From NCBI RefSeq assembly GCF_001425055.1, contig NZ_LMDK01000018.1:186001-250000 (forward strand): a DNA stretch of 64,000 nt, given 5' to 3'. Positions 13,622 to 52,740 of the stretch are shown here, one piece after another. This DNA comes from Pelomonas sp. Root1237 (lineage in GTDB: Bacteria; Pseudomonadota; Gammaproteobacteria; Burkholderiales; Burkholderiaceae_C). A model generated the notes under the pieces. The model was given only the letters and a program-made list of their open reading frames with translations, made no database searches and was not told where the DNA came from. The position numbers and the translations under genes are program-made. Position 1 is the stretch's first letter. The number at the start of each line of letters is the position of its first letter.

Positions 13622-13636
13622 TGTAGCTTCACTACA
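13622..13636. promoter_or_regulatory. TGTAG-N5-CTACA operator, copy 1 (perfect)
   Basis: TGTAGCTTCACTACA has perfect 5-bp arms. It lies 108 bp upstream of the glucokinase-HexR fusion start. The form is close to the HexR consensus as I recall it (TGTARTWWWAYTACA). Confidence 0.65.
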
Positions 13637-13745
13637 GATCCTCGGCAATCGAGTTTCCCCAGGGCGATGGCTGGCTTGCCGGGAGTTGAAAGCGTTTTCT
13701 CATTCGAGATTTGATTCCAAGGGCGAGTATGTATTGTCGATTTGA

Positions 13746-13760
13746 TGTAGTTTTGCTACC
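13746..13760. promoter_or_regulatory. TGTAG-N5-CTACA operator, copy 2
   Basis: TGTAGTTTTGCTACC matches 9 of 10 arm bases. It is 104 bp upstream of the ATG of the stand-alone glucokinase, on the other side of the divergent region from copy 1. Confidence 0.6.
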
Positions 13761-13863
13761 GTCCGCCGCGACCGTACTACACCCTTTTCAGCCCTGTGTT
13801 TGCCACTGTCCGACTCCTGAATATCCGCTGCCTTGCGCCCCTCCTTGTTTCGGGAGTTCCTGT

Positions 13864-14856
13864 ATGAGTGCCGCCTACCCTTGGTTGGTGGCCGACGTCG
13901 GCGGCACCAATGCGCGTTTCGGCACCGTTGCCGGCCCCGGCGCCGCAGTGGAAGACGTGCGGGTGCTGTCGGTGGCGGGCCATGCGGGCCCGGCGGCCGC
14001 AGTGCGCGCATATCTGCAGGGGCAGCCAGCCGGCAAGGCCAAGCCGCAAAGTGCGGCCTTTGCGCTCGCGACGGCGCTGGACGGCGATCACATCGAGCTG
14101 ACCAACGGTGCCTGGAGCTTCTCGCGCGCCGGCACGCAGGCCGAACTGGGCCTGAAGACGCTGCTCTGCCTGAATGATTTCGAGGCCCAGGCGCTGTCGC
14201 TGCCGCGGCTGCGGGCCGACCAGCTGCGTGCCTGGGGTGCGCCCCCGCCGGCGACCGGTGATGTGGCTGTGGGCACGGTCATGGCTGTCATCGGCCCGGG
14301 CACGGGCCTGGGCGTGGGCGGCGTCGTGCGCGCACCCGGGCGCTGGCTGGCGCTGCCGGGTGAGGGTGGGCACGCGACGCTGGCGCCGGCGGACGATTTT
14401 GAGAGCGCCGTGCTGAGCCAGGCGCGCCGCGAGTTCCCGCATGTGTCGGCCGAGCGCTTCCTGTCGGGCATCGGGCTGCCGGTGCTGTGCCGCGCCGTCG
14501 CGGCCGCGCTCGGCGAGGGCGAAGACGTCAGCTCGCTGCCGACCGAGCAGATCGTCGCCCGGGGCCTGGCCGGTGAATCGACTGCTTGCGTGCGCACGCT
14601 GGATCTCTTCTGCGCCATGCTGGGTGGTTTCGCCGGCAGCGTCGCGCTGACGCTGGGTTCGCGCGGCGGCGTCTTCATCGGCGGCGGCATCGTGCCGCGC
14701 CTGGGCGAGCGCTTCTTCCAATCGGAGTTCCGCGCCCGTTTCGAGGCCAAGGGGCGCTTCCAGCCCTTCCTGGCGGGCATCCCCACGGCCCTCATCACCG
14801 ACACGCTGGCCGCATTGTCCGGCGCCGCCCTGGCGCTGGAGCAGGCCGACGCCTGA
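13864..14856 (+). CDS. glk: Glucokinase
   Basis: A 330-residue cytoplasmic glucokinase of the E. coli Glk type. The start is ATG 13864 (MSAAYPWLVADVGGTNARFG) because the phosphate-binding motif follows directly. Catalytic Asp105 lies in LCLNDFEAQAL; IGPGTGLGVGG and LPGEGGHATLAP are the other sugar/ATP-binding signatures. The C-terminal GGVFIGGGIVPRLGERF stretch is nearly the same as in the fused glucokinase on the other strand, so the two are paralogs. It would phosphorylate glucose released by the amylases and MalQ. A strong terminator hairpin follows directly, so the gene is probably monocistronic. The upstream operator copy suggests common control with the starch genes. Confidence 0.94.
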   Translation: MSAAYPWLVADVGGTNARFGTVAGPGAAVEDVRVLSVAGHAGPAAAVRAYLQGQPAGKAKPQSAAFALATALDGDHIELTNGAWSFSRAGTQAELGLKTLLCLNDFEAQALSLPRLRADQLRAWGAPPPATGDVAVGTVMAVIGPGTGLGVGGVVRAPGRWLALPGEGGHATLAPADDFESAVLSQARREFPHVSAERFLSGIGLPVLCRAVAAALGEGEDVSSLPTEQIVARGLAGESTACVRTLDLFCAMLGGFAGSVALTLGSRGGVFIGGGIVPRLGERFFQSEFRARFEAKGRFQPFLAGIPTALITDTLAALSGAALALEQADA

Positions 14857-14857
14857 C

Positions 14858-15040: not shown

Positions 15041-15055
15041 TGTAGTTGCGCTACA
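15041..15055. promoter_or_regulatory. TGTAG-N5-CTACA operator, copy 3 (perfect)
   Basis: TGTAGTTGCGCTACA has perfect arms. It is in the upstream region of the TonB-dependent receptor gene, 256 bp before its start codon, directly followed by a TTGACT hexamer (15059-15064) that could be a -35 element. Confidence 0.65.
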
Positions 15056-15193: not shown

Positions 15194-15208
15194 TCTAGTT
15201 TTGATACA
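15194..15208. promoter_or_regulatory. TGTAG-N5-CTACA operator, copy 4 (degenerate)
   Basis: TCTAGTTTTGATACA matches 8 of 10 arm bases and shares the TTTTG spacer of copies 2 and 8. It lies 103 bp upstream of the TonB-receptor start, nearly the same distance as copy 2 from glk. Confidence 0.4.
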
Positions 15209-15311: not shown

Positions 15312-18101
15312 ATGACCATGAGCCAAGACAAGTGCGGGTCGGGCACCGCGGCGTCGTTCCGCATCAGTCCGATTGCCATCGGCTGCACATTGCTGATCGC
15401 CGCCGCAGGCGCACAAGCGCAGACCCAGCAACTCGAAACGGTGACCGTCACCGGCATCCGCAGAGGCATCGAGGCATCGATCTCGGTCAAGAAGAACGCC
15501 GACAACATCGTTGAGTCGGTCTCGGCCGAAGACATCGGCAAGCTGCCCGACATCAGCATCGCCGAGTCCATCGGCCGCCTGCCGGGCCTTTCCGCCCAGC
15601 GCGTGGCGGGTCGCGCCCAGGTCATCAGCGTGCGCGGCCTGTCGCCCGATTTCGCCACCTCGCTGCTCAACGGCCGTGAGCTGGTGAGCACCGGCGACAA
15701 CCGCTCGGTCGAGTTCGATCAATACCCCTCCGAGCTGCTGGCCGGCGTGAGCGTCTACAAGACGCCGGACGGCGGCCTGGTCGGCCAGGGCCTGTCCGGC
15801 ACCATCGACATGCAGACCGTGCGCCCGTTGAACTTCGGCAGCCGCGTGATGGCCGTCAACGTGCGCGGTCAGAGGAATTCGCTGGGCGGTGCCGCCGGTT
15901 CCAAGGGCACGGGCAACCGCGTCAGTGCCAGCTACATCGACCAGTTCGCCGACCGCACCGTCGGTCTGGTGCTGGGCTATGCCCACCAGGAAACCCCGAT
16001 CCAGGAAGAGCAGGTCGGCCTGTACGAGCCCTGGCAGTCGCTGGGCGCCGGCTGGCGTCCGGGCGTGGCGGCAGGTACGTTCTATTCCGATGGCATCAAG
16101 GCCCTGCGCCGCACCGGGGTGAACAAGCGCGACGCCTTCATGGCGACCGCCGAGTTCCGCCCGAACAAGGACTTCACCAGCGTGGTGGACTACTACCACA
16201 CCAGGGCCACGCAGGAGGACACCGCGAACCAGTTTGAAGTCAATCTCGGCGGCTACAACGGCGGTTACAACCCGGGCCTGAACATCGCTTCCCCGGTGGT
16301 GAACGGCAACAACACCTTCGTCGGCGGCAGCGCCAGCGGCCTGTACCCGCTGGTGCGTGGCATGTACAACGACCGCAGGGACACCATCGATGCCTTCGGC
16401 TGGAACAACAAGCTCAAGCTGGCCGGCGGTGGCACGCTGACGGCGGATGTGAGCTACTCCAAGGCTGACCGCAAGGAAACCAATCTCGAGAACAACACGC
16501 AGTTGCTGCCCACCGGCGCAACCGCACCGCTGGACACCCTGAAGCTGAATTTCGCCACGTCCAGTTTCCCGACGCTGACCCCCACGCTGAACTACTCCGA
16601 CCCGACCAAGCTGTTCCTGCGCGGCACGATCTACGGCTCGGGCTACGGCAAGCGTCCCAGCGTCGAGGACGAGCTCAAGTCGTTCAAGCTGGCTGGCAAC
16701 TTCCCGCTGCCGGATTCGATCAAGGGCTTCTTCCAGGACGTGGACCTGGGTGTCAACTACGCCGACCGCTCCAAGAAGAAGCGCCAGCCCGAGGGCAACA
16801 TCAACGTCGGCTCGCAGGGTGACACCGCCATTGCCAGCGACCTGCAGTACGCCCCCGTGGACCTGAGCTTTGCGGGCCTGGGCAGCATCCCGGCCTGGAA
16901 CGTGCCGGGCGCCGTGTCGCGCTACATGACTTTCAACCCCAGCGAGACCAGCGCAGCCTATCTGATCCCCAAGGCCTGGAACGTGTACGAAAAGGCCACC
17001 ACCGGCTTCATCAAGGGCAACATCGACACCGAGTTGGGCGGCATCCCCATGCGCGGCAACGTGGGCCTGCAAGTCATCCGCGTGGATCAGTCGTCCACGT
17101 CGAACTATTGGGACAGCAACGCGCCCGCCGGCAGCAATGTCAAGACCAACAGCGACGGCAAGGTGCGCACCGACGTGCTGCCAAGCATGAACCTGGCTTT
17201 CTCGCTGGCCGATGACCAGACCCTGCGCGTGGCCCTGGCCCGCCAGATGGCCCGCCCGCGCGTGGACCAGCTCCGCTCGGGCATCGAGTTCGGCGTCGAC
17301 AACTCGACCGGCAAGCCCGGCGCCAGCGGCGGCAACCCCAAGGCCGATCCGTGGATCGCCAATGCCTTCGACGTGTCCTATGAGAAGTACTTCGGCACCA
17401 AGGCCTATATCGCCGCGGCGGGCTTCTACAAGGACTTGAAGAGCTACATCTACACCCAGAAACAGGACGGCTACGACTTCACGGACTTCGTCAAAAGCTA
17501 CACGCCGCCGAACACGTGCACGACGCCTGCCGGCCCCAATCAGCCTTGTCCCGCCGCGCTGCCCACGGGTACGTTCACGGCGCCGTTCAACGGCAAGGGC
17601 GGGAAGTTGTCTGGTGTCGAGCTCTCGGCCTCGCTGCCGCTGAGCCTCGTCTCCGACACCTTCAAGGGCTTTGGCATCCAGGCCAGCGCCAGCTTCACCC
17701 ACAGCAGCATCAAGATCCAGGATCCGGAGAGTGCGAGCAGCGTGGGTGGCGGCGACATCGCGCTGCCCGGCCTGTCCAAGCGGGTCTACAACCTGACGGC
17801 CTACTACGAGGCCAATGGGTTCGAGGCCCGCGTGAGCCAGCGCCGCCGCTCGGACTTCATTGGTGAAATCGGCAACTTCAACGGCTCACGTACCCTGCGC
17901 TACGTTGTTGGCGAGAAGATCACCGACCTCCAACTGGGCTACTCCTTCAACGAGGGCGCCTTCAAGGGTCTGGGGCTGCTGTTCCAGGTCAACAACCTGA
18001 CCAACGAGGCTTACCAAACCTACGCCGGCACCAAGGATCGCCCGTTGGAGTACATCCGCTGGGGGCGCACCTTCCTGCTGGGGGCGAACTACAAGTTCTG
18101 A
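15312..18101 (+). CDS. TonB-dependent receptor, probable maltodextrin transporter
   Basis: A 929-residue outer-membrane receptor. The start is ATG 15312, preceded by AGAGGAGA and beginning a signal peptide that ends near AGAQAQ (residue 37). A TonB box, ETVTVTG, follows at 42-48. The plug domain shows NIVESVSAEDIGKLPD, SIGRLPGLSAQRV and VISVRGLSPDF. The long beta-barrel ends with the aromatic terminal residue typical of outer-membrane proteins (LGANYKF). The family with these plug motifs includes MalA of Caulobacter, which imports maltodextrins. Placement among glucokinase, amylase and mal genes supports that substrate (inference). It is followed by a clear terminator and is probably expressed from its own operator-controlled promoter. 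Confidence 0.93.
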   Translation: MTMSQDKCGSGTAASFRISPIAIGCTLLIAAAGAQAQTQQLETVTVTGIRRGIEASISVKKNADNIVESVSAEDIGKLPDISIAESIGRLPGLSAQRVAGRAQVISVRGLSPDFATSLLNGRELVSTGDNRSVEFDQYPSELLAGVSVYKTPDGGLVGQGLSGTIDMQTVRPLNFGSRVMAVNVRGQRNSLGGAAGSKGTGNRVSASYIDQFADRTVGLVLGYAHQETPIQEEQVGLYEPWQSLGAGWRPGVAAGTFYSDGIKALRRTGVNKRDAFMATAEFRPNKDFTSVVDYYHTRATQEDTANQFEVNLGGYNGGYNPGLNIASPVVNGNNTFVGGSASGLYPLVRGMYNDRRDTIDAFGWNNKLKLAGGGTLTADVSYSKADRKETNLENNTQLLPTGATAPLDTLKLNFATSSFPTLTPTLNYSDPTKLFLRGTIYGSGYGKRPSVEDELKSFKLAGNFPLPDSIKGFFQDVDLGVNYADRSKKKRQPEGNINVGSQGDTAIASDLQYAPVDLSFAGLGSIPAWNVPGAVSRYMTFNPSETSAAYLIPKAWNVYEKATTGFIKGNIDTELGGIPMRGNVGLQVIRVDQSSTSNYWDSNAPAGSNVKTNSDGKVRTDVLPSMNLAFSLADDQTLRVALARQMARPRVDQLRSGIEFGVDNSTGKPGASGGNPKADPWIANAFDVSYEKYFGTKAYIAAAGFYKDLKSYIYTQKQDGYDFTDFVKSYTPPNTCTTPAGPNQPCPAALPTGTFTAPFNGKGGKLSGVELSASLPLSLVSDTFKGFGIQASASFTHSSIKIQDPESASSVGGGDIALPGLSKRVYNLTAYYEANGFEARVSQRRRSDFIGEIGNFNGSRTLRYVVGEKITDLQLGYSFNEGAFKGLGLLFQVNNLTNEAYQTYAGTKDRPLEYIRWGRTFLLGANYKF

Positions 18102-18144: not shown

Positions 18145-18322
18145 CGTTTGGGGGCCCTCATCGGCCCGGTCGGGAGACGGGCGATGATTCAGGGGACACA
18201 TGACGCACAAGCTGGAGAGAAGCTCGACCTCTGTCGCACGCATGGACGCATCTACCGTTTCAGCGGCGCCACCGCTTGCCACTTGCCCGCGATCACGCAG
18301 CACGTCCCTCATCGAGACCGCC

Positions 18323-19615
18323 ATGCCCAACCGCCGCACCGTACTGACCGCCGCCACCTCACTCGCCCTGCCCGCCATGAGTGCCTCTGCCGCCGCTTCC
18401 GTCGAGATGCCCCATCTGCCCTGGACCCGCCAGGCCGTCATCTACCAGATCAACGTTCGCCAGTTCTCGCCCGAAGGCACGTTCAAGGCCGTGCAGTCGG
18501 ACCTGCAGCGGCTGAAAAGGCTGGGCGTGGACATCCTGTGGCTGATGCCCATCCAGCCCATCGGCAAGCTCAACCGCAAGGGGACGCTGGGCAGCTACTA
18601 CTCGATCAGCGACTACACGGCCGTGAACCCCGAGTTCGGCACGCTGGCCGATGCCAAGGCGCTGGTCGCTGCGGCGCACAAGCTGGGGTTCAAGGTCATC
18701 CTCGACTGGGTGGCCAACCACACGGCCTGGGAACACCCCTGGGCTACGGCACACAAGGATTGGTACAAGCTCAACGGCAAGGGTGAGATCCACGCCGTCA
18801 CTTTCAACGAAGGCCAGCCGGGCGAGGAGCACTGGGACGATGTCGTCGCGCTGAACTACAAGAGCCCGGGCTTGCGCGCCGCAATGATCGACGCGATGAA
18901 GTTCTGGGTGCGAGAAACCGGCATCGATGGCTTCCGCTGCGATGTGGCCAGCCTGGTGCCGACCGACTTCTGGGTGCGTGTGCGCAAGGAGCTGGACGCG
19001 GTCAAGCCGATGTTCATGCTGGCCGAGTCCGACGCCATCGACCTGCACACCAGCGGCGCCTTCGACATGACCTATTCCTGGGACCTGGCCGACCAGGTGT
19101 TCAAGAGGATCGGCAAGGGCGAGGCGGGCGCCCCACTGTTGAAGGAGTGGCTGGCCAAGCAACCGGCGGGCTTTCCCGCCCATGCCTACCGCATGCGCTT
19201 CACGAGCAATCACGACTTCAACTCCTGGCACGGCACCGACGCCGATCTCTACGGCGACGCCTACCCCGCACTGGCGGTACTGACGTTCACGCTGCCCGGC
19301 ATGCCGCTGGTCTACAACGGCCAGGAGTCGCGGTTGACCAAGAAGCTGGAGTTCTTCGAGAAGGACGCCATCGACTGGAAGACCTATGAGCTGAGCGACT
19401 TCTACGCCAGCCTCGCTGCGCTCAAGCACCAACATCCGGCGCTGGCCGCCGGCCAGTACGGCGCGCCGGTGAAGCTGCTGGACAGCCCGCCCGACATCGT
19501 CGCCTTCGAGCGCCGCCTGGACCAGGACCTGGTACGCGTGGCTGTCAACCTGTCGAAGATGGAACAGCTCTGGCAGGGCCACAAGCTGCGCCCATGGGGG
19601 TGGCAGTTGTCATGA
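18323..19615 (+). CDS. Exported GH13 alpha-amylase family enzyme
   Basis: A 430-residue GH13 glycosidase. Start ATG 18323 is chosen because it opens a signal peptide with an Arg-Arg pair (MPNRRTVLTAATSLALPAMS), possibly Tat-type; longer starts add non-homologous residues. The (beta/alpha)8 signatures are DWVANH (128-133), GFRCDVAS with nucleophile Asp207, MLAESD with acid/base Glu235 and FTSNHD with Asp298. The protein is compact: there is no starch-binding module and only a short C-terminal domain. It probably cleaves maltodextrins in the periplasm or outside the cell. It is the first gene of a plus-strand run: its stop overlaps the next start (ATGA), which argues for co-translation with the epimerase. 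The 160 bp upstream carry no operator copy. Confidence 0.92.
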   Translation: MPNRRTVLTAATSLALPAMSASAAASVEMPHLPWTRQAVIYQINVRQFSPEGTFKAVQSDLQRLKRLGVDILWLMPIQPIGKLNRKGTLGSYYSISDYTAVNPEFGTLADAKALVAAAHKLGFKVILDWVANHTAWEHPWATAHKDWYKLNGKGEIHAVTFNEGQPGEEHWDDVVALNYKSPGLRAAMIDAMKFWVRETGIDGFRCDVASLVPTDFWVRVRKELDAVKPMFMLAESDAIDLHTSGAFDMTYSWDLADQVFKRIGKGEAGAPLLKEWLAKQPAGFPAHAYRMRFTSNHDFNSWHGTDADLYGDAYPALAVLTFTLPGMPLVYNGQESRLTKKLEFFEKDAIDWKTYELSDFYASLAALKHQHPALAAGQYGAPVKLLDSPPDIVAFERRLDQDLVRVAVNLSKMEQLWQGHKLRPWGWQLS

Positions 19616-26146: not shown

Positions 26147-27037
26147 TCAGCCCTTGACGCCGCCAGCAGTCAGGCCGGAGACGATCCAGCGCTGTGCCAG
26201 CAGGAAGACCAACGTGATCGGCAGGCCCGACAGCACGGCCGCGGCCGCGAAGTCGCCCCACAGGAAACGCTGGTCGTGCAGGAAGTATTTGGAGCCGACG
26301 GCCAGCGTGAGGTTGCCCTCTTCGCGCAGCAGGATGGACGCCACCGGGTACTCGATGATGGTGCCGATGAAAGCCAGCACGAAGACCACCATCAGGATGG
26401 GAATCGCCATCGGCAGCAGCACGCGCGAGAAGGCCTGCCAGTGCGTCGCGCCGTCGACCTTGGCGTTCTCCTCGATCTCTACGGGGATGGTCTCGAAGTA
26501 GCCCTTGATGGTCCACACATGCGTGGCGATACCGCCCAGGTAGGCGAGCACCAGACCGGCATGCGTCTCGATGCCCAGCGCCGGCACATAGGTGCCGATG
26601 GTCTCGAAGATGGCGTAGATGGCCACCAGCGCCAGCACCGGCGGGAACATCTGCAGCAGCAGCATGCCGTTGAGCACCGGCTTGTCGAAGCGGAACTTCA
26701 TGCGCGCGAAGGCATAGGCCGCGCTGGTGGAGATGGCGACGATGAGGAAGGCCGAGATCGTCGCGATCTTGATCGAGTTCCACAGCCAGGTCAGCACGGG
26801 GAAGGGTGGCTGCACCAGGCTGCCGTCGGCCGCTTGATATGGGATGCCGAGCGCCAGCTTCCAGTGCTCCAGGCTGATCTCGGTCGGGATCAGGCTACCG
26901 GTGGCGAAGTTGCCGGGGCGCAGCGAGATGGACACGACGGCCAGCAGCGGGAAGATGGTGGTGGCGATGAAGAGCCACATCACCGCGTGGCCGGCGAGGG
27001 TGCGCCAGCGGGCTTGTTTGCCGAGGACGATGGCCAT
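26147..27037 (-). CDS. malG: Maltose/maltodextrin ABC transporter permease MalG
   Basis: A 296-residue inner-membrane permease with six predicted helices, the first at about 15-37 ([21 protein letters not shown]). The EAA coupling loop [21 protein letters not shown] docks onto MalK, and the protein ends [11 protein letters not shown] as in MalG proteins. It forms the translocation pore with MalF. It lies 278 bp downstream of malF, separated by a 171-bp hairpin-forming repeat, and 5 bp upstream of the amylase gene. Such a long malF-malG gap is unusual, because these two are normally adjacent. Confidence 0.95.
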
Positions 27038-27100
27038 GGTTCAGAACTCCGAATGTCTTTCTGGATGGGTCGGGATCGGCCCGGGTGAGCGGTCTGCTCC

Positions 27101-27271
27101 GTGTCCCCCGCCCGCTGCGCGGTCTCCTCCTTTACCTGCGCAGCCCGCCCACCCGGCCCGATCCAACACCAGCGGTTTCCTTCGCTGAAGAAACCCACTG
27201 GGTCCAGTTGCCGAGTGCGGCGGGCGAGGGACGAAGGTAAAGGAGGAGGTCGCGTAGCGGCCGGGGGACAC
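27101..27271. repeat. 171-bp palindromic element in the malF-malG gap
   Basis: GTGTCCCCCG followed by CCGCTGCGCGGTCTCC and TCCTTTACCTGCG at 27101-27140 is matched by its near-perfect reverse complement at 27232-27271 (CGAAGGTAAAGGAGGAGGTC onward). The centre is a second hairpin: CCAG-CGGTTTC near 27157-27180 pairs with GAAACCCACTGG ending near 27202. The whole element could fold into one ~170-nt structure in the mal transcript. Nothing in it codes for protein. It looks like a dispersed palindromic repeat inserted between two operon genes; it could act as an mRNA processing or stability element, or as a partial terminator. Confidence 0.8.
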
Positions 27272-27315
27272 GTAGTCCCTCGTCTGCCGCGCTTGGCAAC
27301 CCATCGATGCCAGCA

Positions 27316-36349: not shown

Positions 36350-38424
<2,075 letters not shown>

Positions 38425-38428
<4 letters not shown>

Positions 38429-39933
38429 ACCTGAACCAACGCTCCTCGGGTGTGCTGCTGCACATCACCTCGCTGCCCGGCCCCCATGGCATGGGCGACT
38501 TCGGCCCCGACGCTTATCGTTTCGTCGACTGGTTGCAGTCCGCCGGCCAGTCCGTCTGGCAGTTGCTGCCGACGACGCCCATCGGCCCCGGCGACAGCCC
38601 CTACCAGGGCGTGTCGGCCTTCGCCGGCAGCCAGTGGATGGTGGCGCTGGAACCGCTGGTCGCCAAGGGCTGGCTGACCCAGCCGAGCGTCCCGGCCTTC
38701 AACGGCGGCCTAATCAACTATGGCGAGGTCACGCCCTGGCGCGAGCAGCAGCTGCGCGCGGCCGCCAAGGGCTTCTTCGCCAACGCGGCCGACGTCGACC
38801 GCATCGCCTTCGCCAAGTGGTGCCTGGAAGCGCAGAGCTGGCTGGACGACTACGTCCTCTTCATGGCCATCCGCTCGCCGCTGAATGGCCAGCCGTGGTG
38901 GGAGTGGAGCGAAGGCCTGAAGAAGCGTGAGTCCGCGGCACTGGCGGCGGCGCGCAAGGACTACGCCGACGAGATCGCCTTCTGGCAATTCGTGCAGTGG
39001 CAGTTCGATGTGCAGGCCGGAGCGCTCAAGAGCTACGCCAACGAGCGCGGCGTCCACATCATGGGCGACCTGCCCATCTTTGTCGCCCACGACAGCGCCG
39101 ACTGCTGGTCGCGCCCCGACCTTTACGAGCTGGACGACAACTTCCAGACCACGGTGGTGGCCGGCGTGCCGCCCGATGACCTCGGCCCGCTCGGCCAGCG
39201 CTGGGGCAACCCGCTCTATCGGTGGGACAAGATGGCCGACGAGAACTACGCCTGGTGGACGGCGCGCATCCAGCGCGCGCTGACGCAGGCCGACGTCTTT
39301 CGCATCGACCATTTCCGCGGCTTTGCCGGCTACTACGAGATTCCCGCCAGCAGCCCCGACGCCACGCAGGGCCAGTGGCTGACCGGCCCGGGCATGGCCC
39401 TCTTCGACGCCATCAGACAAGCCCTGGGCCCGCTGCCCATCGTGGCGGAGGACCTGGGCTTCATCACCGATGACGTGCACGCGCTGCGCGATGGTTGCGG
39501 CTTCCCCGGCATGAAGATCCTGCAGTTCGCCTTCGGCGCTACAGCGCAGCACGAATTCCTGCCGCATATGTGGCCCAGGGCCTCGGTGGCCTACACCGGC
39601 ACGCATGACAACGACACCGTGCGCGGCTGGTGGGACCAGGCCAAGCCTCGCGAGCGCGCCTTTGCCGGCTCTTACCTCGCCTGCGGCGACCACGACGTGC
39701 ACTGGGCCATGATCCGCGCTTGCGCGAATTCGGTGGCCAACATGGCCGTGTATCCGCTGCAGGACGTGCTTGGCCTGGGCAGCGCCCACCGCATGAACGT
39801 GCCCGGCGTGCTGGGCGGCAACTGGGGCTGGCGCTTCCATTGGGGCATGCTGGGCAGCGAGCCGGCCCGTGTGCTCGGACTCATCACCGCCGCCTCGGGC
39901 CGCGGGCCTTTCGAGCTGTTGCGTCTGCCCTGA
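38425..39933 (+). CDS. malQ: 4-alpha-glucanotransferase (amylomaltase)
   Basis: A 502-residue GH77 enzyme. The start is ATG 38425 (MNLNQRSSGVLLHITSLPGP), overlapping the glgX stop by 4 bp. It transfers maltodextrin segments and releases glucose, linking maltodextrin import to glycogen phosphorylase. Family segments are SLPGPHGMGDFGPDAYRFVDWL (20-41), QLLPTTPIGPGDSPYQG, GDLPIFVAHDSADCWSRPDL, the nucleophile Asp in DVFRIDHFRGFAGYYEIP, Glu in IVAEDLGFITDDV and Asp in YTGTHDNDTVRGWW. It is the last gene of the glycogen operon; hairpin-forming sequence follows at once. Confidence 0.96.
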
Positions 39934-40814: not shown

Positions 40815-42644
40815 TCAGCGCGAGACTTCCAGGATCAGCGGGCTGCGCGCCGCCACCGTCAGCGTGGCGCCGAGGCTGAACTCCCGGTCACCGAGGACGT
40901 CGCGGGCACGGTCACCCGCGGCCACGCGCTCGCTGAAGCGGGACAGCGCCAGATTCACCGGCTCGGCGCTCTTGTTCAGCACGACCATGACGGTGCGGTC
41001 GGCTTCGTAGCGGAAGAAGACATGGCAGCCGTCCAGCGGTGCGTACTGCATCAGCGCGCCGTCGTGGATGGTGGTGGCGCCCTTGCGCCAGTTGAAGAGG
41101 CGGCGCGTCCAGTCCTGCATCTCACGCTGCTCGGCCGTCAGGCCCGCGCCGGTGAAGGCGTTGACGGTGTCGCCGGGCCAGCCGCCGGGCATGTCGGCGC
41201 GCACGCGGCCGTCGTCGCGCTCCACGGGGCTCTCGAGCAGGATCTCGCTGCCGTAGAACAGCTGCGGAATGCGCCGCGTGGTAGCGAGGTAGGCCAGCGC
41301 GATCTTGGTCAGGCCGACATCGCGCTTGAGCAGCGAAAACAGGCGCGGCGTGTCGTGGTTGCCGTCGAACAGCACGAGGTTGGCCGGGTCGGGGTAGACG
41401 AAGTCATGCGCCAGGCCCTCGTAGAGCTTGGTCAGGCCGGTGTGGGCGCCGTCGTCCTCGGTCAGTGCGGCCAGCAGATTGCCCTGCAGCGGGAAGTCCA
41501 TCAGGCTGGGTGCGTATGACACATAGCCGTCGTGGTTCTTCTTGCCGCGCTGCCAGTAGGACACGACGGCCGGGTGCGGGCTCCATTCCTCGCCGACGAT
41601 GTTCAGGCGCGGGTACTCCTGCATGACGCGGGCCGACCAGCGGGTCAGGAAGTCGCGGTCGGAGTAGGAGTAGGTGTCGGTGCGGATGCCTGACAGGCCG
41701 AAGCGCTCGACCCACCACAGCGTCATCTGCGTCAGATAGGTGGCCAGCTCGGGCCGGCGCTGGTTCAGGTCGGGCATGCCGGGAACAAACCAGCCATCGG
41801 TGAAGCGCAGGCGGTCGCTCGGCGACGCGTAAGGGTCCTGCAGCGTCATGCGCGCGTGGTGGGTTTCGGTGTATCCGGCTGGCCATTGGTTGACCCAGTC
41901 CGGCGCCGGCAGGTCGGCCATCCACCAGTGGCCGCTGCCGATGTGGTTGAGCACGATGTCCTGGATTACGCCGACGCCCTGGGCCCGAGCCTCGGTGGCG
42001 AAGGCGCCGAAGTCGTCGTTCGTGCCGAAGCGCGGATCGATCTTGTAGAAGTCCGTCGCCGCATAGCCGTGATAGCTGTACCTGGCGCTGTTGTTCTCGA
42101 CCAGCGGCGTCGGCCAGACCTGGGTGAACCCGAGCCCGGCGATATAGCCCAGGTGCTGGCGCATGCCGGCCAGGTCGCCGCCGTGGCGGCCGCCGGGGTC
42201 GTCGCGGTGGATGCCTTCCTTCATGTCGGCGGGCTTGCCGCTGCCGCCCTGGGCGAAGCGGTCCGGCACGACGAGATAGATGGCGTCCCTGGGGCCAAAG
42301 CCCTGGCGCTGCGCCGAGCCCGGCGCGCGGGCCAGCAGCGGGTAGCGCAGCGTCGTGCCGGCCACGTTCAGCAGCAGTTCGCCCGGCTTGGCGTCGGGGC
42401 TCACGTCGAGGTCGATGAAGAGGTAGTTGGCGCTGGTGGCGCGGTGGCTGCCCTTCAACCTCACGCCGGGGTAGGGCGCCAGCGTCGGCTGGGCGCCGGC
42501 AATGCCGCTGCCATGCAGCATCAGTTGCAGGGAGGTGTCGCGCATGCCGACCCACCAGTTGGGCGGTTCGACATGCTGCAGGCCGGCGGCCATCGTGTTC
42601 AGGCTCATCAACAGGGCGGTGGTCAGGGTGATCAGGGACTTCAT
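40815..42644 (-). CDS. Exported GH13 enzyme, cyclomaltodextrinase/neopullulanase-like
   Basis: A 609-residue exported enzyme with signal peptide MKSLITLTTALLMSLNTMAA. An N-terminal beta domain (about 20-125, LQHVEPPNWWVGMRDTSLQL through LLLNVAGTTLRYPLLAR) is the cyclomaltodextrinase N-domain. It is followed by the GH13 barrel starting DAIYLVVPDRFAQGG. Catalytic residues are in SGIRTDTYSYSD (Asp), NIVGEEWSP (Glu) and FDGNHDTPR (Asp). The RHGGDLAGMRQHLGYI segment is typical of SusA/neopullulanase-like enzymes. It likely shortens maltodextrins or cyclodextrins in the periplasm. The ATG at 42644 overlaps the stop of the upstream GH13 gene by 4 bp, so the two enzymes are co-translated. Confidence 0.92.
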   Translation of the reverse strand: MKSLITLTTALLMSLNTMAAGLQHVEPPNWWVGMRDTSLQLMLHGSGIAGAQPTLAPYPGVRLKGSHRATSANYLFIDLDVSPDAKPGELLLNVAGTTLRYPLLARAPGSAQRQGFGPRDAIYLVVPDRFAQGGSGKPADMKEGIHRDDPGGRHGGDLAGMRQHLGYIAGLGFTQVWPTPLVENNSARYSYHGYAATDFYKIDPRFGTNDDFGAFATEARAQGVGVIQDIVLNHIGSGHWWMADLPAPDWVNQWPAGYTETHHARMTLQDPYASPSDRLRFTDGWFVPGMPDLNQRRPELATYLTQMTLWWVERFGLSGIRTDTYSYSDRDFLTRWSARVMQEYPRLNIVGEEWSPHPAVVSYWQRGKKNHDGYVSYAPSLMDFPLQGNLLAALTEDDGAHTGLTKLYEGLAHDFVYPDPANLVLFDGNHDTPRLFSLLKRDVGLTKIALAYLATTRRIPQLFYGSEILLESPVERDDGRVRADMPGGWPGDTVNAFTGAGLTAEQREMQDWTRRLFNWRKGATTIHDGALMQYAPLDGCHVFFRYEADRTVMVVLNKSAEPVNLALSRFSERVAAGDRARDVLGDREFSLGATLTVAARSPLILEVSR

Positions 42645-44224
42645 GGCGCTTGCAAGCTGTAGATGCGCACCGAAAGCGGCTGCAGCGTGGCGGAGATGGC
42701 GCCCTTGGGATAGAGCGCCCGGGCATGCGCCGTCAGTTCGATGGTGGCCGGTGTGTCGCCGTAGTTGATGGCAACGAGGGCACGCTCCTTGCCCTGCACG
42801 CGCTGGAAGCTCCAGACGGCGCCGTCGACGCGGTCGGACTCGTAGCGGCCCAATGTCAGTGCCGGCGACGCGCGGCGCAGCGCGATCAGCTCACGGTAGA
42901 AGTTGAACAGCGAGCCGGCGTCGCGCTGCTGGCTTTCGGCGTTATGGGCACTGCGGTTCAGGGCCAGCGGGCGGAAGGGCTGGGGGTTGGTCGTGAAACC
43001 ACCTGCCGCGGTCCAGCTCATCGGCGAACGCAGCGGATCGTCACCCTTGCCGTCGATGCCAGCATGGCCGATCTCCTCGCCGTAGTAGACGAAGGGCGTG
43101 CCGGGCAGCAGCAGATAGCTCGCCGCGGCGAGCCGGTAGCGGGCTTCGTCGCCGTGCAGTTGGTCCCACACGCGTTGGCCGGTGAAGATGTCGTGGTTGT
43201 GCAGGAAGGTCGCCATCGTCGGCGACATGCTGCGGTAGTAGTCGGCCACCTTCTGCACCGCCGCAACCTCGCCCTTGGCAGCCTTGATGATTTCGTAGTT
43301 CTGGTTGAAGGCGAAGGCGCCGCCGCACAGCTCCGGCTTGCCATAGGCGATGGGCTCGGCCGTGGCCTCGCAGACGACGTAGCGGCCGGGGTAGCTCTTG
43401 ATGAGGTCCTGGAAGCGCTTGGTCAGCACGCGGCTTTCGGGCTGGTCGTTCCAGTCCTTGGCGTTGTTCTCGATGAGGTGAGGCACGGCATCCAGCCGGT
43501 AGCCGTCCAGGCCGCGGTTGAGCCAGAAGCGCAGCGAGTCCTCGTGGTACTGCACCACGGCCGGGTTGCGCATGTTGAAGTCGGGCATCTGCGGGCCGAA
43601 GGTGCCGAAGAACACGTCCGGCGCACCAGGCTTCGGCGCGGGCAGGTCCTTCAGTTCGCCGGGCCAGTCCCACGGCTTGGTGGCGGCGTCGTACCAGGGA
43701 TATTTGCCCCAGATGTCCCAGCCGGGGCCCGGCGCGGTATTCCAGACGAACCAGCTGCGCCAGGGGCTATTGCGGTCGGCCACGGCCTCTTGGAAGGGCG
43801 GGAATTGCCAGGACGCGTGGTTGATGACGTAGTCCATGACGATGGCGATGCCGCGCTTGTGCGCCTCGCGGATCAGCTCGTCGAAGTCGGCCAGCGTGCC
43901 GTACTGCGGTTCGATGGCGCGGAAGTCGGTCGTGGCGTAGCCGTGATCGTGATCGGAGCTGGCGGTGATGGGCATCAGCCACAGGCCGCTGACGCCGAGC
44001 TTCTTCAGGTAGTCCAGTCGCCGGGTCAGGCCTTTCAGGTCGCCGATGCCGTCGCCATTGCTGTCCTGGTAGCCGCGCACGAAGACTTCCATGAAGACGC
44101 CGTGCTGCCAGTTCGCGGGCAGGGCGCTGGCGCGCGGCTGGGGCGGTACCGGCCGTGTGTCGATCTGGGCTTGTGCCGTGGCCGCTGCGGCCAGTGCGAG
44201 GGTGAGCAGCAGTTGCTTTTGCAT
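42641..44224 (-). CDS. Exported GH13 alpha-amylase/alpha-glucosidase-like enzyme
   Basis: A 527-residue exported GH13 enzyme. I use ATG 44224, which begins a standard signal peptide (MQKQLLLTLALAAAATAQAQ). ATG 44266 in frame would add 14 basic residues and cannot be excluded; neither has a strong ribosome-binding site. The barrel begins GVFMEVFVRGYQDSNGDGIG, the calcium-site-like segment of oligo-glucosidases and some amylases. Catalytic residues are in DGYRLDAVPHLIE (Asp), VVCEATAEP (Glu) and LHNHDIFTG (Asp). The DSNGDGIGDLKGL motif suggests activity on short maltodextrins. It is the first gene of a two-enzyme operon; a degenerate operator copy lies 53 bp upstream of ATG 44224. Confidence 0.9.
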   Translation of the reverse strand: MQKQLLLTLALAAAATAQAQIDTRPVPPQPRASALPANWQHGVFMEVFVRGYQDSNGDGIGDLKGLTRRLDYLKKLGVSGLWLMPITASSDHDHGYATTDFRAIEPQYGTLADFDELIREAHKRGIAIVMDYVINHASWQFPPFQEAVADRNSPWRSWFVWNTAPGPGWDIWGKYPWYDAATKPWDWPGELKDLPAPKPGAPDVFFGTFGPQMPDFNMRNPAVVQYHEDSLRFWLNRGLDGYRLDAVPHLIENNAKDWNDQPESRVLTKRFQDLIKSYPGRYVVCEATAEPIAYGKPELCGGAFAFNQNYEIIKAAKGEVAAVQKVADYYRSMSPTMATFLHNHDIFTGQRVWDQLHGDEARYRLAAASYLLLPGTPFVYYGEEIGHAGIDGKGDDPLRSPMSWTAAGGFTTNPQPFRPLALNRSAHNAESQQRDAGSLFNFYRELIALRRASPALTLGRYESDRVDGAVWSFQRVQGKERALVAINYGDTPATIELTAHARALYPKGAISATLQPLSVRIYSLQAP

Positions 44225-44276
44225 GGTGTTCAGCAGGTGGCGGTGTGGACGAGAAAACTTGTCCATGAGGCAGTCA

Positions 44277-44291
44277 TGTAATCAAACTACT
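44277..44291. promoter_or_regulatory. TGTAG-N5-CTACA operator, copy 7 (degenerate)
   Basis: TGTAATCAAACTACT matches 8 of 10 arm bases and shares TCAAACTAC with copy 6. It lies just upstream of the minus-strand amylase operon in the divergent region with the first pullulanase. Confidence 0.45.
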
Positions 44292-44353: not shown

Positions 44354-44368
44354 TGTAGTTTTGCTACT
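44354..44368. promoter_or_regulatory. TGTAG-N5-CTACA operator, copy 8
   Basis: TGTAGTTTTGCTACT matches 9 of 10 arm bases; 14 of 15 bases are identical to copy 2. It lies 26 bp upstream of the pullulanase ATG at 44394, which argues against the longer in-frame start at 44349. Confidence 0.6.
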
Positions 44369-44393: not shown

Positions 44394-47102
44394 ATGCCAT
44401 CTCGCCCCCTGCTGTGCTGCATGGCGCTGGGCCTGACGCTGATTGCCGGTGCAGCGTGCGCCAGCGATCTGGACGATTGCAATGCCGAAGTGCCGATCCC
44501 CGCACCTGCTGCGCGGCCGGCAGCCGAGGCCTATTGGCTGGATGCGCGGACCGTGCAGTGGCCGGGGCTGAAGCTGCAGGGCGGCGACCGCGTACGCCTG
44601 TATCACGCCCGGGCGGCGGGGCTGAAGGCGCCGGCTGGCGACAGGGTCACTGGTGCCGATGGCGCGGTCGAACTCGTGCTCGCCACGGCGGCGCTGCCGG
44701 CGCGATTCCGTTTCATCGGTGAGGGGCCGCGCTTCGCCATTGCGGGCGGCGCGGATGCCGCGGCCCTGCTGCGTGAGCAGTTGATGCTGGTGCACGAAGC
44801 TGCCGACGGCCGGGTCATCGGCGCGACGGGCCTGCAATTGCCCGGCGCCCTGGACGACCTCTATGCCGCGGCCGAGCGCGTGACGGATTTTGGCGCCCAT
44901 CCCGCCAAGGCGCAGACGCGCTTTGCCGTCTGGGCCCCGACGGCCCAGCGCGTGCTGCTGTGTCGCCATGCCGGACCCGAGTCGCCCGCGGTGGCGGTCG
45001 ATGCGATGCGTCTCGATGCCGCCATCGGTGTCTGGCGCGCCGAGCTGCCCGGCGACCTGAGCGGCCAGTCTTATCGTTACCTCGTCGACGTCGTCACGCC
45101 CACGCACGGTCGCGTACGCAACCTCGTCACCGACCCCTATTCGGTTGCGCTGACGGCCGACTCGCGGCTCAGCGTCGTCGCCGACCTTGCTGCCCCCGCG
45201 CTCAAGCCGCGTGGCTGGGACGCCTCGCCGCGCCCGACACGCGTGAGGCTCGCCACCGACCAGGTCATCTACGAACTGCATGTGCGCGACTTCTCGGTCA
45301 GCGACACGACTGTGCGGCCCGAATGGCGCGGCAAATACCTGGCTTTCACGCAAGGTGAGTCCAACGGCATGAAGCACCTCAAGGCGCTTTCCAAGGCCGG
45401 CCTGACCGACGTGCACCTGCTGCCGGTCTTCGACCTCGCCAGCGTGCCGGAGCGCGGCTGTATGACGCCGACGGTGCCCGACGCGCCCGCCGACGGCGAG
45501 GCCCAGCAGGCCGCCGTCATGGCCGTGGCGGCCGGCGACTGCTTCAACTGGGGCTACGACCCCTGGCACTTCAATGCGCCCGAGGGGAGCTATGCGACCG
45601 ATCCGCTGAAACGAGTCGTCGAGTTCCGGCGGATGGTCATGGCCCTGCACGGGGCGGGGCTGCGGGTCGGCATGGACATGGTCTACAACCACATGTCGGC
45701 CGCCGGCCAGGCCCGCAAGTCGGTGCTGGACCGCCTCGTGCCCGGCTACTACCAGCGGCTCAACGCCAAGGGCGAGATCGAGCGCTCGACCTGCTGCGAC
45801 AACACGGCCACCGAGCACCGCATGATGGCCAAGCTGATGATCGACTCGGCGGCGCTGTGGGTGCGCGATTACAAGATCGACTCGATGCGCTTCGACCTGA
45901 TGGGCCACCAGCCGCGCGAGGCGATGGAGAGGCTGCAAAAGCGTGTCAATGCCGAAGCCGGCCGGCCGGTGCAACTGCTGGGCGAGGGCTGGAACTTCGG
46001 CGAGGTGGGCAACGGCGCACGCTTTGTGCAGGCCTCGCAGCTGAGCCTGAACGGCAGCGGCATCGGCTCGTTCAGCGACCGCGGCCGGGATGCCGCACGA
46101 GGTGGCAGCGCAGGCGAGGGCGGCGACGACAGCGTGCGCAACCAGGGCTGGCTCAATGGCCTGGTGTACGCGCCCAATGCCTTGTCGAACGCGAAGCCGG
46201 AAGAGCTGCTGGCCGCCGCCGACATGATCCGTGTCGGCCTGGCCGGCTCGCTGCGCGGCTATGAGCTGACGACCTGGCGTGGCGAGACCAAGCGCCTCGA
46301 TGCCATCCTCTACGGCGGCGACCAGCCGGCCGGCTTCGCGTCCGAGCCGGGCGAGGTCGTCAACTACGTAGAGAACCACGACAACCAGACGCTGTTCGAC
46401 GTCAACACGTTGAAGCTGCCGCTGGCGACCAGCCGCGCGGACCGCGCCCGCGTGCAGATGCTGGGCGCTGCGGTGGTGGCTTTCAGCCAGGGCATTGCCT
46501 ACTTCCATGCCGGCCAGGACATCCTGCGCAGCAAGAGCATGGACCGCAACAGCTACGACAGCGGCGACTGGTTCAACCGGCTGGACTGGAGCTACAAGAG
46601 CAACCACTTCGGCACCGGCCTGCCGCCCAGGCAGGACAACTTCGGCAAGGACGGCCGCGACTGGGCGCTGGCCCGCGAGCGGCTGACCGATGGGGCCATT
46701 TCCCCCGGCCCGGCCGAGATCGCCTGGGCCCGCGACGTCTTTCGCGACCTGCTGCAGATCCGCGCCAGCACGCCGCTGCTGCGGTTGAGCAGCGCCGCCG
46801 AGATCAAGAAGCGGTTGAGCTTCCCCGGCAGCGGCCCAAGCCAGAACCCGGTGCTGGTGGCGACGCGAATCGACGGAAAGGGCCTGCCGGGCGCTGGCTT
46901 CAAAGCCGTGATGACGCTGATCAACGTCGCGCCGACGGCGCAGACGCTGAACCTCCCCGAGGAGGCCTCTGCCGTCTGGCGCCTGCACCCGGCGCAGCGC
47001 CATTCACAGGCGGCGGATCGGCGCGTGGCGCGCGAGGCCAAGGCGGTTCGCGGTGTCTTCGATGTGCCGGCCCGCAGTGCGGCCGTGTTCGTGCTGGATT
47101 GA
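44394..47102 (+). CDS. Secreted pullulanase-type alpha-1,6-glucosidase without CBM41
   Basis: A 902-residue exported GH13 debranching enzyme. The start is ATG 44394, with AAGGAGACC just upstream and a signal peptide ([20 protein letters not shown]). ATG 44349 would translate through operator copy 8 and is rejected. After a short linker it has the pullulanase N2-type domain (about 35-150, [16 protein letters not shown]), a CBM48 module (about 165-260, [13 protein letters not shown]), the barrel from [17 protein letters not shown] and a C-terminal domain. Catalytic residues lie in [15 protein letters not shown] (Asp), [11 protein letters not shown] (Glu) and [12 protein letters not shown] (Asp). 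It hydrolyses alpha-1,6 links in pullulan or branched dextrins. It is paralogous to the larger pullulanase at 49-52.6 kb but lacks that enzyme's starch-binding modules. Confidence 0.93.
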
Positions 47103-49003: not shown

Positions 49004-52000
49004 TCAGTTGGATGCCGCGGGGCGAGCGACGAAGACGACGGCCGTGCGGGCCGGCACGTTGAAGGCGCCGGTGGTGCGGTCGAACGTGGCTGCGCGAGCG
49101 TGCTGGTCGGCGGTGTGCGCCGGGTGCAGTTCCAGCGCGTGGCCGGCGAGCGTGGGCAGCGTGAGTTGCTTGGCGGTCTTGTCGACGTTGATCAGGTAGA
49201 CGAGTTCATCAAAGTTGGCGCCCGGGTAGCCCACGCCGTTCAGGCGGCCGACCAGCACGGTGGCCTCCTGGTTGGAGCCGGTGTTCAGGAAGCTCAACCG
49301 CGCCTTGATGTCCTCGGCCGTGCGCAGGCGCAGCAGCGTGCTGCTCTTGCGGATGCGCAGCAGGTCGCGGAAGGCGTCGCGCGTCCAGGCGATGTCGTTG
49401 GGGTGGGGCTTGAGCAACGGGTTGGTCAGCAGCGGGCGGGCGAGGTTCCAGTTGTCGCCGTTGTCGCGCGAGGGCGGCAGGCCGACGCCGAAGTTGTTGT
49501 CGGCATAGCTCCAGTCCAGGCGGTTGAACCAGTCGCCGCTGTCGTAGCTGTTGCGGTCCAGGCTCTTGCTGCGCAGCGTGTCCACGCCGGCGTGGAAATA
49601 GGCCACGCCCTGGCTGAAGGCATTGATGGCGCTGGCCAGGATCTGCACGCGGGCGCGGTCCTCCTTGCTGGTGCCGGTGGGCAGGCGGAAGGCGTTGTTG
49701 TCGAACAGCGTCAGGTTGTCGTGGTTCTCCACGTAGTTGACGACTTCGCCGGGCTCCAGCACCCAGCCGGCCGGAATGCCGCCGACGTCGATCTGGTCCA
49801 GGCGCAGGTTGGCGTCCCAGCTCGTCTGCATCTGGAAGCTGCGGATGGAGCCGGCCAGCGAGGCCTTGAGGCGGTCGGCCTGCCACATCAGCGTGCCGCG
49901 GTTCTGGCCCGAAGCACTGGCGTTGGAGTCGTAGAAGTAGCCGTTGACGTAGCCCTGCTCGCTGACCAGCGCGTTGCCGGAGTCGCAGCAGCCGCCGCCG
50001 CGCACCGCGTCGCGGATCAGCGGGTTGAAGCTGCCGATGCCCGAGCCGTTGAGCGACAGCATCTCGGCCTGCACGAAGCGCGCGCCGTTGGCCACTTCAC
50101 CGAAGTTCCAGCCCTCGCCGACGATCTGCACCTCGCGGCCGGTGGCGAGCTTGACGCGGGCCTTCAGCGCCTCGATGACCGAGCGTGGGTGGTGGCCCAT
50201 GATGTCGAAGCGCAGCGAGCTGATGCGGTAGTCGCGCGTCCAGGTGACGGCCGAGTCGATCATCAGCTTGGCCATCATCAGGTTCTCGGCCGCGGTGTTC
50301 TCGCAGCAGGTCGAGCGCTCGATGCCGCCGGTCGCGCTGAGGCGGTAGTAGTAGCCGGGCACGACCTTGTCGAGCACCGAGCTGGCGTTCTGGCCCGACG
50401 AGGTGGTGTGGTTGAACACCACGTCCATGCCCACGCGCAGGCCGGCGGCGTTCAGTGCCTGCACCATGCGGCGGAACTCGACGACGCGGGTCAGCGGGTC
50501 GTTGGCATTGCTGGAGTAGCTGCCTTCGGGCGTGCTGAACTGCAGTGGGTCATAGCCCCAGTTGAAGCAGTCGGTGCCGGCAGTAGCCGCGACCGTGGCC
50601 TGCTGCGAGTCGCTGTCGGGCGCGCCGCTTGGGACGGGCGTCACGCAGCTCTTTTCGTTGACGCTGGCGATGTCGAAGACCGGCAGCAGGTGCACGTCGG
50701 TCAGGCCGGCTGCGGCCAGTGCCGTCAGGTGCTTCATGCCATTGGACTGGCTTTCGGTGAAGGCCAGGTATTTGCCACGCTTGGTAGCGGGCACGGTGGC
50801 GTCGTTGATCGAGAAGTCGCGGACATGCAGCTCGTAGATGCTCAGGTCCGACGGCGCGGCCACGGTGGTGGGCGGCGCGCTCTGGTCCCAGCCATTGGGC
50901 TTGGTGGCCTGGGCCTGCAGGTCCATGACAACGCTCTGCTGGCTGCCCAGGGTCAGGCCGAGGGAATAGGGGTCTGTGACGAGGTTCTTCACCAGGCCCG
51001 TGCCCTTGACGAAGACCTGCACCTGGTAGCGGTAGGTGGCGCCTTGCAGATGGCCTTGCTTGCTGAGGCTCCAGACGCCGGTGGCAGCGTCGCGCGCCAT
51101 CGGCTCGGTAGTGGTGCGGGTCAGGCCCGAGTTGCCCAGGGCCGTCGTCAGCACCAGCGATACGTTCTGCGCGGTGGGTGCCCACAGCTTGAAGCTGGTG
51201 CTGCCATTGCTGGCGACGGCGCCGAGGTCGGGCACGTTGTTGGCGGCGGCATAGAGGTCGTCCAGCGCGCCGGCGATCTGGGCGGTGGTGGCGTTCTGCA
51301 CCTTGCCGTTGGCGTCTTCCTGCACGAGCACGAGTTGCTGCTGGTGCAGGCTGGGCAGGCGAACCACGTCGGCTGCACGCACGTTGAAGACGGTGCCGCT
51401 GGCCACGTACTTGAAGCGCAGCGCGTCAGCGGCGGGCACGGTGCCGGTGAAGGCGTCCAGCGTGATGTAGCCGTCAGCGCCTTGCACCGGCGCTTCGAGG
51501 CCGACGCTGATCTGGCCAGTGGCCGAGTAATAGAGGCGAACCGGGCTGCTGGTGGCGATGCGCGGCCACTTCACCAGCGTCTTGTTCAGCCACACGGCGC
51601 GGGCATCGGTGCTGGAGACCTGGCGCAGGTCCGGCGGCGCGAAGTAGACGGTGGCGTCGCGCTCCACCAGCCAGATCTGGCCGACCTGGTTCTGGATGTT
51701 CAGCGCGGCGTACTCGACATGGATGTTGTCGTTGCGGCCATCCTTGTCGTTCTCGTTGGGCGGCATGCCATGGATGATGAATTCCAGGGCCTTGCGGTTC
51801 ACGTCGCCCTGCGGGTTCAGCACGGGGATGTCGAACACGACTTCGCCGTCGCCAGCCGCGTAGCCGGGCATGGCGTTCAGCGGCACGGGCTGGCCCCAGT
51901 TCTCGATGTTGACGCCTGAGGGCAGTGCCGGAGCGTTCAGGCCGCTGCCGTTCCACAGATGCAGGCCCCAGGCGCTGTAGCCGCTGTCGAAGCGCTTGTA

Positions 52001-52582
52001 GTGCACGCGCAGGGTCTTGATGTCGGGCGCGGGCAGCAGCAGCGGGTTGCTGGCGTAGCTGGTGCTGTCGCCTGCCAAGCGCCAGATCTCGTTGGCGCCG
52101 GCCTGGAGCGCATAGCTCTGGTCGGCGCCGCCGTTGTCCTTGTTGTCGCCGTTGTGCAGCAGGAAGCCGACGGTGCCGCTGCCCGCGGCCAGGGGCACGT
52201 CGTAATAGACGCCGAAGTCGTCGCTGCCGGCCGCGTTCCAGCCGCCGTTCCAGTTCGGGCTTTGGGCGGCGTTCCAGGTGTGGATCTGCCAGCCGGCGTA
52301 GTCGCCGCCCGAGCGGCGGTAGTGCACGCGCAGCGAGGTGGCGGGTGCACCGGGCGTAGCCACGGCGGCAATCTTGGCGCGTGGCGCCTGCTGGGCGACT
52401 GGCACGCCGGCCAGCAGCTCAACGCCGCTGCTGTCTTCGGCTGCCGCGCTGCTGACGCTGCTCATGGTGGCCTGTGGTTCGACGCTCCCGCCGCCACAGG
52501 CCCCCAGCAGCGCCAGCGCGCCGATTGCCAAGCCCGTGATCGCCTGTCGCGCCTGCAGCGCCCAGCCTGCCCATGCCTTCAT
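49004..52582 (-). CDS. pulA: Lipoprotein pullulanase with two CBM41-type starch-binding modules
   Basis: A 1192-residue outer-surface debranching enzyme. The start is ATG 52582, with AAGGAG 8 nt upstream and a lipoprotein signal ([13 protein letters not shown]) directly after; the longer in-frame start at 52675 would cover operator copy 9. The N-terminal half has two PUD/CBM41 modules (about 80-175, [20 protein letters not shown]; about 185-320, [20 protein letters not shown]). An N2 domain, a CBM48 (about 470-570, [15 protein letters not shown]) and the GH13 barrel (from [19 protein letters not shown]) follow. Catalytic residues are in [15 protein letters not shown] (Asp), [11 protein letters not shown] (Glu) and [12 protein letters not shown] (Asp). 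Lipid anchoring and double starch binding suggest cell-surface starch capture. Confidence 0.94.
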
Positions 52583-52615
52583 GTCGTGCACTCCTTGGAA
52601 GTGCGCGGATGCTAT

Positions 52616-52630
52616 TGAAGCAAAACTACA
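52616..52630. promoter_or_regulatory. TGTAG-N5-CTACA operator, copy 9
   Basis: On the plus strand TGAAGCAAAACTACA matches 9 of 10 arm bases; reversed, it shares the TGTAGTTTTGCT core with copies 2 and 8. It lies 33 bp upstream of the large pullulanase start. Confidence 0.6.
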
Positions 52631-52725
52631 TATGGAAGCTGGTGAAATCCCGAGGGGAAGTTCATGAATTTCCACTACGTATAGAGAGATTCGCCCAGAA
52701 GGCTCATGGATCTATTTGATCTATG

Positions 52726-52740
52726 TGTAGTTTTATTTCA
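52726..52740. promoter_or_regulatory. TGTAG-N5-CTACA operator, copy 10 (degenerate)
   Basis: TGTAGTTTTATTTCA matches 8 of 10 arm bases. It lies 110 bp from copy 9 in the upstream region of the large pullulanase gene and overlaps a minus-strand TTGAAA that could be a -35 hexamer. Confidence 0.4.

Follow-up and report, generated by a model that had tools for sequence, protein, structure and literature searches.

Paired TGTAGT-N3-ACTACA palindromes at a starch and maltodextrin locus of Pelomonas sp. Root1237, with a glucokinase-RpiR fusion as their probable regulator

Genes and palindromes of the starch locus

We analyzed a 64,000-nucleotide stretch of the 6.43-Mb genome of Pelomonas sp. Root1237 (contig NZ_LMDK01000018.1, positions 186,001 to 250,000; hereafter the window), which carries starch, maltodextrin and glycogen genes, ten copies of a 15-bp palindrome, and a gene encoding a glucokinase fused to a regulator of the RpiR (HexR) type. 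As presented in Table 1, the ten copies occupy five promoter regions with two copies each, namely fusion/glucokinase 2, TonB receptor, malK/glgP, GH13 gene/pullulanase 1 and pullulanase 2/TPR gene. Gene starts were refined by our own reading, and start codons and frames were then checked.

Table 1. Genes and candidate operator copies in the window
Feature	Position	Strand or placement	Basis
Candidate regulator gene, glucokinase-HTH_6-SIS fusion, 636 aa	11604..13514	(-)	Pfam, NCBIfam, PDB matches
Candidate operator copy TGTAGCTTCACTACA	13622..13636	~108 bp upstream of fusion gene	Pattern searches and related loci
Candidate operator copy TGTAGTTTTGCTACC	13746..13760	Upstream of glucokinase 2	Pattern searches
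Glucokinase 2, second and standalone	13864..14856	(+)	Pfam Glucokinase; ATG 13864, start refined from 13711
Candidate operator copy TGTAGTTGCGCTACA	15041..15055	Upstream of TonB receptor	Pattern searches
Candidate operator copy TCTAGTTTTGATACA	15194..15208	Upstream of TonB receptor, partner of 15041 copy	Pattern searches
TonB-dependent receptor, TonB-Xanth-Caul type	15312..18101	(+)	ATG 15312, start refined from 15201
GH13 alpha-amylase family enzyme	18200..19615	(+), downstream of TonB receptor	Pfam
malK-malE-malF-malG, maltodextrin ATP-binding cassette transporter genes	26147..31264	(-)	malK GTG 31264, start refined from 31570
Candidate operator copy TGTAGACAATATACA	31347..31361	malK side	Genus conservation
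Candidate operator copy TGTAGTCAAACTACA	31457..31471	glgP side	Genus conservation
glgP, glgB, glgX, malQ (4-alpha-glucanotransferase)	31555..39933	(+), all one strand	
Pair of GH13 genes, one encoding cyclomaltodextrinase N and C domains	40815..44266	(-)	Pfam
Candidate operator copy TGTAATCAAACTACT	44277..44291	Paired with 44354 copy	
Candidate operator copy TGTAGTTTTGCTACT	44354..44368	Directly upstream of pullulanase 1	
Pullulanase 1	44394..47102	(+)	Pfam; ATG 44394, start refined from 44349
Pullulanase 2 with PUD domains	49004..52582	(-)	Pfam; ATG 52582, start refined from 52675
Candidate operator copy TGAAGCAAAACTACA	52616..52630	Upstream of pullulanase 2	
Candidate operator copy TGTAGTTTTATTTCA	52726..52740	Paired with 52616 copy	

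The ten 15-mers had been listed by a sequence-only reading as TGTAG-N5-CTACA. We found all of them in place, with the same arm matches (10, 9, 10, 8, 9, 10, 8, 9, 9 and 8 of 10) and the TTTTG spacer shared by three copies. Their location in upstream gaps, also claimed there, holds with the refined gene starts and fails with the longest open reading frames (ORFs), one of which is overlapped by each of six copies (13746, 15194, 31347, 31457, 44354 and 52616). The further claim that the window has no comparable copy was not borne out: at up to two mismatches we counted 19 other matches, one of them at a single mismatch (TGTAGATCAGCTCCA, 12893-12907, within the fusion gene's coding sequence and probably a chance occurrence). 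The resulting 29 matches compare with 6.2 in 100 shuffles (standard deviation 2.7, largest 17). Our own gene list puts 11 of the 29 outside genes, in a window that is about 13% non-coding, and ten of these 11 are the listed sites. A 12-position consensus, TGTAGT-N3-ACTACA, describes the sites better, with three further window matches at up to two mismatches, all coding. Seven listed copies differ from it by more than one mismatch, five with two mismatches and two (15194 and 31347) with three.

Genome-wide scans were run as pattern searches with mismatch limits. The three exact matches to TGTAGN5CTACA in the whole genome all lie within the window, as do all three matches to TGTAGTN3ACTACA at up to one mismatch. 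At up to two mismatches, the latter pattern occurs in at least 82 places; since such matches are this numerous, the weaker copies are credible through their conservation and not through their score.

Two side observations concern the layout of the locus. A GGDEF diguanylate cyclase gene (47250-48398) lies within it, beside pullulanase 1, and a terminator-like stem (52705-52725) adjoins the copy at 52726.

Conservation of the sites and their targets in other genomes

Conservation at orthologous promoters, which the sequence-only reading had named as support for its proposal, was present in 20 genomes of the genus, with nearly fixed spacing. The glgP-side copy has the perfect consensus in 19 of the 20, and the malK-side copy, weak by consensus, is letter-identical in 18, with a single-letter variant in the other two. 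The two copies are 110 bp apart in 18 genomes, 111 bp in one and 99 bp in one. In an alignment of 19 of these promoters, with the divergent G019 left out, they ranked highest in conservation among 250 15-mers. The pullulanase 1 pair was kept at 75-77 bp in 16/18 genus loci, and was missing in L129 (84% match) and L145 (57% paralogue). The pullulanase 2 pair was kept at 108 bp in 8/13 genus loci, compared with 110 bp for the window's own pair, which lay outside the stretch scanned. A TGTACTnAAACTAGA-type partner was found again in other loci at the place equivalent to 15194. Helical phasing of the paired sites was considered as a sign of looping and set aside as weak (p ~0.03 at 10.5 and 11 bp, 0.62 at 10.0 and 0.15 at 11.2, from 35 hand-picked spacings that are not independent).

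We then scanned 80 related loci with the fusion (1.54 Mb) and observed 119 matches to TGTAGT-N3-ACTACA at up to one mismatch, whereas 59 other permutations of the half-sites gave a mean of 1.46 and a largest count of 9. Such a site lies within 450 bp upstream of the fusion gene in 49 of the 80 loci.

Targets in other genera were assessed in 33 regions of fusion-positive genomes. These were drawn from exact sites among the matches listed, more than ~1.6 kb from the fusion, plus one nearer; the sites of G095, G199 and G212 fell outside this set. Starch or maltose genes are fronted in 29 of the 33 regions (18 malK/glgP, three pullulanase/GH13, three TonB receptors, one glucokinase 2, two LamB porins and two other GH13). 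Among ten fusion-negative genomes with a site, we opened one region from each of seven: six had no window-type starch protein nearby, and one lay at malK/glgP. The latter belongs to G188, a genome 83% complete whose congeneric G265 has the fusion. In the fusion-negative genome G154 (L280), TGTAGCAGAGCTACA occurs four times and may be a repeat that has no connection with the regulon.

Within the genus, 13 outlier regions (L227-L239) were opened among the matches listed. Four are at amylase-type genes, with the site intergenic in L229, L230 and L231, whereas in L232 it coincides with the beginning of an isoamylase ORF whose start is likely overcalled; the remaining nine lie inside ORFs. The recurring genus match TGTAGTCGAACTCCA was discarded as background, being within an ORF in both examples opened (L227 and L228). 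In L230 and L231, from two genus genomes, a near-consensus site separates a DNA ligase gene from a divergently oriented CBM20 alpha-amylase gene, and is likely to mark an additional target.

Taken together, the confinement of the strong forms, the permutation enrichment, the conservation at orthologous promoters and the starch and maltose targets in other genera strongly support the proposal of one starch/maltodextrin regulon. Its span of about 39 kb describes this genome; elsewhere the set extends further, to a LamB porin, the CBM20 amylase and an isoamylase.

The glucokinase-RpiR fusion and other candidate regulators

The sequence-only reading saw no function for the set in gene annotation; it had overlooked the adjacent fusion gene, just outside its coordinates. 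The fusion protein consists of a glucokinase domain (residues 9-324), an HTH_6 domain (337-407; 67.3 bits, Pfam cut-off 28.3) and a SIS domain (458-585; 56.7 bits, cut-off 25). It has the same domains as NCBIfam PRK14101 (NF010701), a bifunctional transcriptional regulator/glucokinase, but it scored 818.8 bits over residues 5-594 of 636 and did not reach the cut-off of 920. The cut-off of the NCBIfam HexR model NF008451 was not reached either (236.8 bits against 296). In a PDB search, the C-part was nearest to the RpiR-type chains 8ju9 (E=3.5e-63) and 8k3b, and, of the relatives with a name, Pelomonas sp. Root1217 came nearest in the fusion search (98% identity in the best segment). The architecture is thus already annotated, under a model name that states no regulon or operator, and for the operator type there is the precedent of RccR. 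A literature search found no study of the fusion's regulon; a prediction in RegPrecise may exist.

RccR is a HexR paralogue of Pseudomonas. According to PMC5489143, it binds 15-bp sites with TGTAGT and ACTACA arms, as tested by surface plasmon resonance and footprinting, and leaves the aceE and rccR sites when 2-keto-3-deoxy-6-phosphogluconate (KDPG) rises. The sites described here have the same length and arms by sequence match, and are likewise paired within one promoter, as RccR's are at aceE, 68 bp apart; the predicted DNA-contact arginines are identical in the fusion. In contrast, RccR is a standalone, KDPG-binding protein controlling pyruvate, glyoxylate-shunt and gluconeogenesis genes, whereas the candidate carries a glucokinase, has starch/maltodextrin genes as apparent targets, and has Tyr in place of Ser139. 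HexR, a repressor of glucose pathways whose consensus is quoted as TTGT-N7-8-ACAA (PMC5489143), shares the HTH_6-SIS architecture of the fusion's C-part; the fusion differs from it in its score, in the absence of such a site at zwf and in having different apparent targets.

HTH_6 was matched by just two proteins of the genome, the fusion and a standalone HexR-type protein beside zwf (C19:347040-347918). We scored co-occurrence in 200 genomes of the family, with TGTAGYN3RCTACA as the exact site and the fusion called at E up to 1e-150. Exact sites were present in 31/42 fusion-bearing genomes versus 10/158 without the fusion (Fisher p=1e-18). A looser cut-off adds the distant fusions of G076 and G187, both site-free (31/44 versus 10/156, p=1e-17), and a hand count by genus gave 21/31 with the fusion versus 10/110 without.

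In a rival reading, the sites would be operators of the standalone HexR, which would then jointly control starch and central carbon genes. This protein is 44% identical to the C-terminal half of the fusion and retains the two predicted DNA-contact arginines as well as the two effector serines. However, no site at up to three mismatches lies within 450 bp upstream of zwf in 20/20 genus genomes, a comparison that covered zwf among the zwf and Entner-Doudoroff genes attributed to HexR control. Moreover, the protein, found in 136/200 family genomes, does not predict sites among fusion-negative genomes (7/96 versus 3/62, p=0.74). Given these two results, we consider the standalone HexR an unlikely regulator of the set. 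The zwf/transaldolase intergenic region has, instead of the 15-mer, another conserved element near GTATTTCACGAAACTTAGTTACACAA (L107 ~11390-11420; zwf loci L207-L226), more divergent in L225 and L226, to which the standalone HexR itself may bind.

A regulator of another family, of LacI or GntR type, seems equally improbable. LacI-type MalR, MdxR or MalI govern maltose/maltodextrin use in other bacteria (PMC4052901), and MalR or MdxR would resemble the candidate in being one regulator for maltodextrin use, although their protein family is unrelated to it. No other DNA-binding domain, LacI family included, was found among the 28 window ORFs scanned with Pfam, a subset of those in the window; the motif equals an RpiR-family operator tested in PMC5489143 and tracks the fusion. 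That the 15-mers are promoter parts or some other DNA feature is very improbable: every copy is close upstream of a start codon, but the twofold symmetry is kept, the pairs have nearly fixed spacing, the 15-mers co-occur with one regulator gene, and a consensus scan of four regions gave no sigma-70-like match.

Proposed regulation and its meaning

Overall, computation gives the sites, their confinement and conservation, the specificity of their targets and their co-occurrence with the fusion. We consider it quite probable that the palindromes are operators of the fusion, paired at five promoter regions, through which it would repress the starch genes and its own gene. The fusion is preferred because the motif matches RccR sites, the contact arginines are kept, only two HTH_6 proteins were found, zwf is site-free and the sites track the fusion.

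Several observations weigh against this conclusion. An exact site is missing in 11/42 fusion-bearing genomes and present in 10/158 others; these counts run over related genomes, and the fusion-negative genomes may also be without starch genes. Similarly, 31/80 fusion loci have no site at up to one mismatch within 450 bp upstream of the fusion, and four of the 33 target regions (L243, L249, L262 and L268) show no starch gene, one neighbour in L243 being an Asp/Arg hydroxylase. In the source genome there was no raw excess over a control of the search tool, the pattern read backwards (277 vs 118, 297 vs 82, 20 vs 3 and 4 vs 3, control vs pattern). As the reversed control outnumbers the pattern, the argument draws its strength from position, conservation and co-occurrence rather than from raw counts. 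The absence of a sigma-70-like promoter at the four regions scanned also counts against the operator reading, and the idea of an operator overlapping such a promoter was dropped. Finally, the fusion and the standalone HexR have similar HTH domains, so cross-binding is possible.

For the fusion, we infer binding, the direction of control and the effector. The two HTH domains of a presumed dimer would read TGTAGT and ACTACA across the 3-bp spacer, as in RccR. The precedents of HexR and RccR suggest that it probably represses the genes for the maltodextrin transporter, GlgP, the pullulanases, the amylases, the TonB receptor and glucokinase, and the copy at 13622 would imply autoregulation. Repression at the paired operators would end on a signal from starch breakdown or from the entry of starch-derived sugar. 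This signal could be glucose or glucose 6-phosphate, acting via a kinase domain that keeps its motif aspartate, or else a sugar phosphate in the altered SIS pocket.

To compare the two domains, we used 115 fusions (80 related loci, 34 chosen stretches weighted to divergent members, and the window protein), with residues numbered as in RccR (PMC5489143), taken as equal to PDB 8ju9, which has the same residues at these positions. The predicted DNA-contact arginines 53 and 56 and the predicted effector serine 183 are kept in 115/115. Position 139, the other predicted effector serine, is Tyr in 92/115, the window protein included, Ser in 20 and Ala in three. The kinase residue compared is the aspartate of the VND motif, which we take to be the catalytic base of E. 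coli glucokinase. Kinase/SIS combinations were Asp/Tyr in 92 fusions, Asn/Ser in 19, Asp/Ala in three and Asp/Ser in one. In a FastTree tree for which we chose the distant L282, L308 and L309 as the root, the 19 Asn/Ser proteins form one clade (0.996), and the 92 Asp/Tyr proteins with one Asp/Ala form another (0.767), so the two sets represent about two lineage events and not 111. A MalG-like or GH13 gene lies directly upstream on the same strand in 14/19 Asn/Ser loci; the link to maltose is therefore probably older than the split of the clades. The opposite residue losses in the window's clade and its sister clade suggest that sensing may have moved between the kinase and SIS domains. Tentatively, and with considerable doubt, the fusion could act as a trigger-enzyme repressor that senses through an active glucokinase domain, in which case the phosphorylation of glucose would itself set starch-gene expression; kinase and SIS domains would have traded the sensing role, leaving each lineage with one working sensor.

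If the palindromes are indeed operators of the fusion, an annotated fusion protein would gain a function, an operator and a regulon, and an RpiR regulator, kin of central-carbon repressors, would run a starch regulon in Burkholderiales. With the kinase aspartate and the SIS serine lost in opposite clades, it becomes testable whether the signal of such an enzyme-regulator fusion is carried by the one domain or the other.
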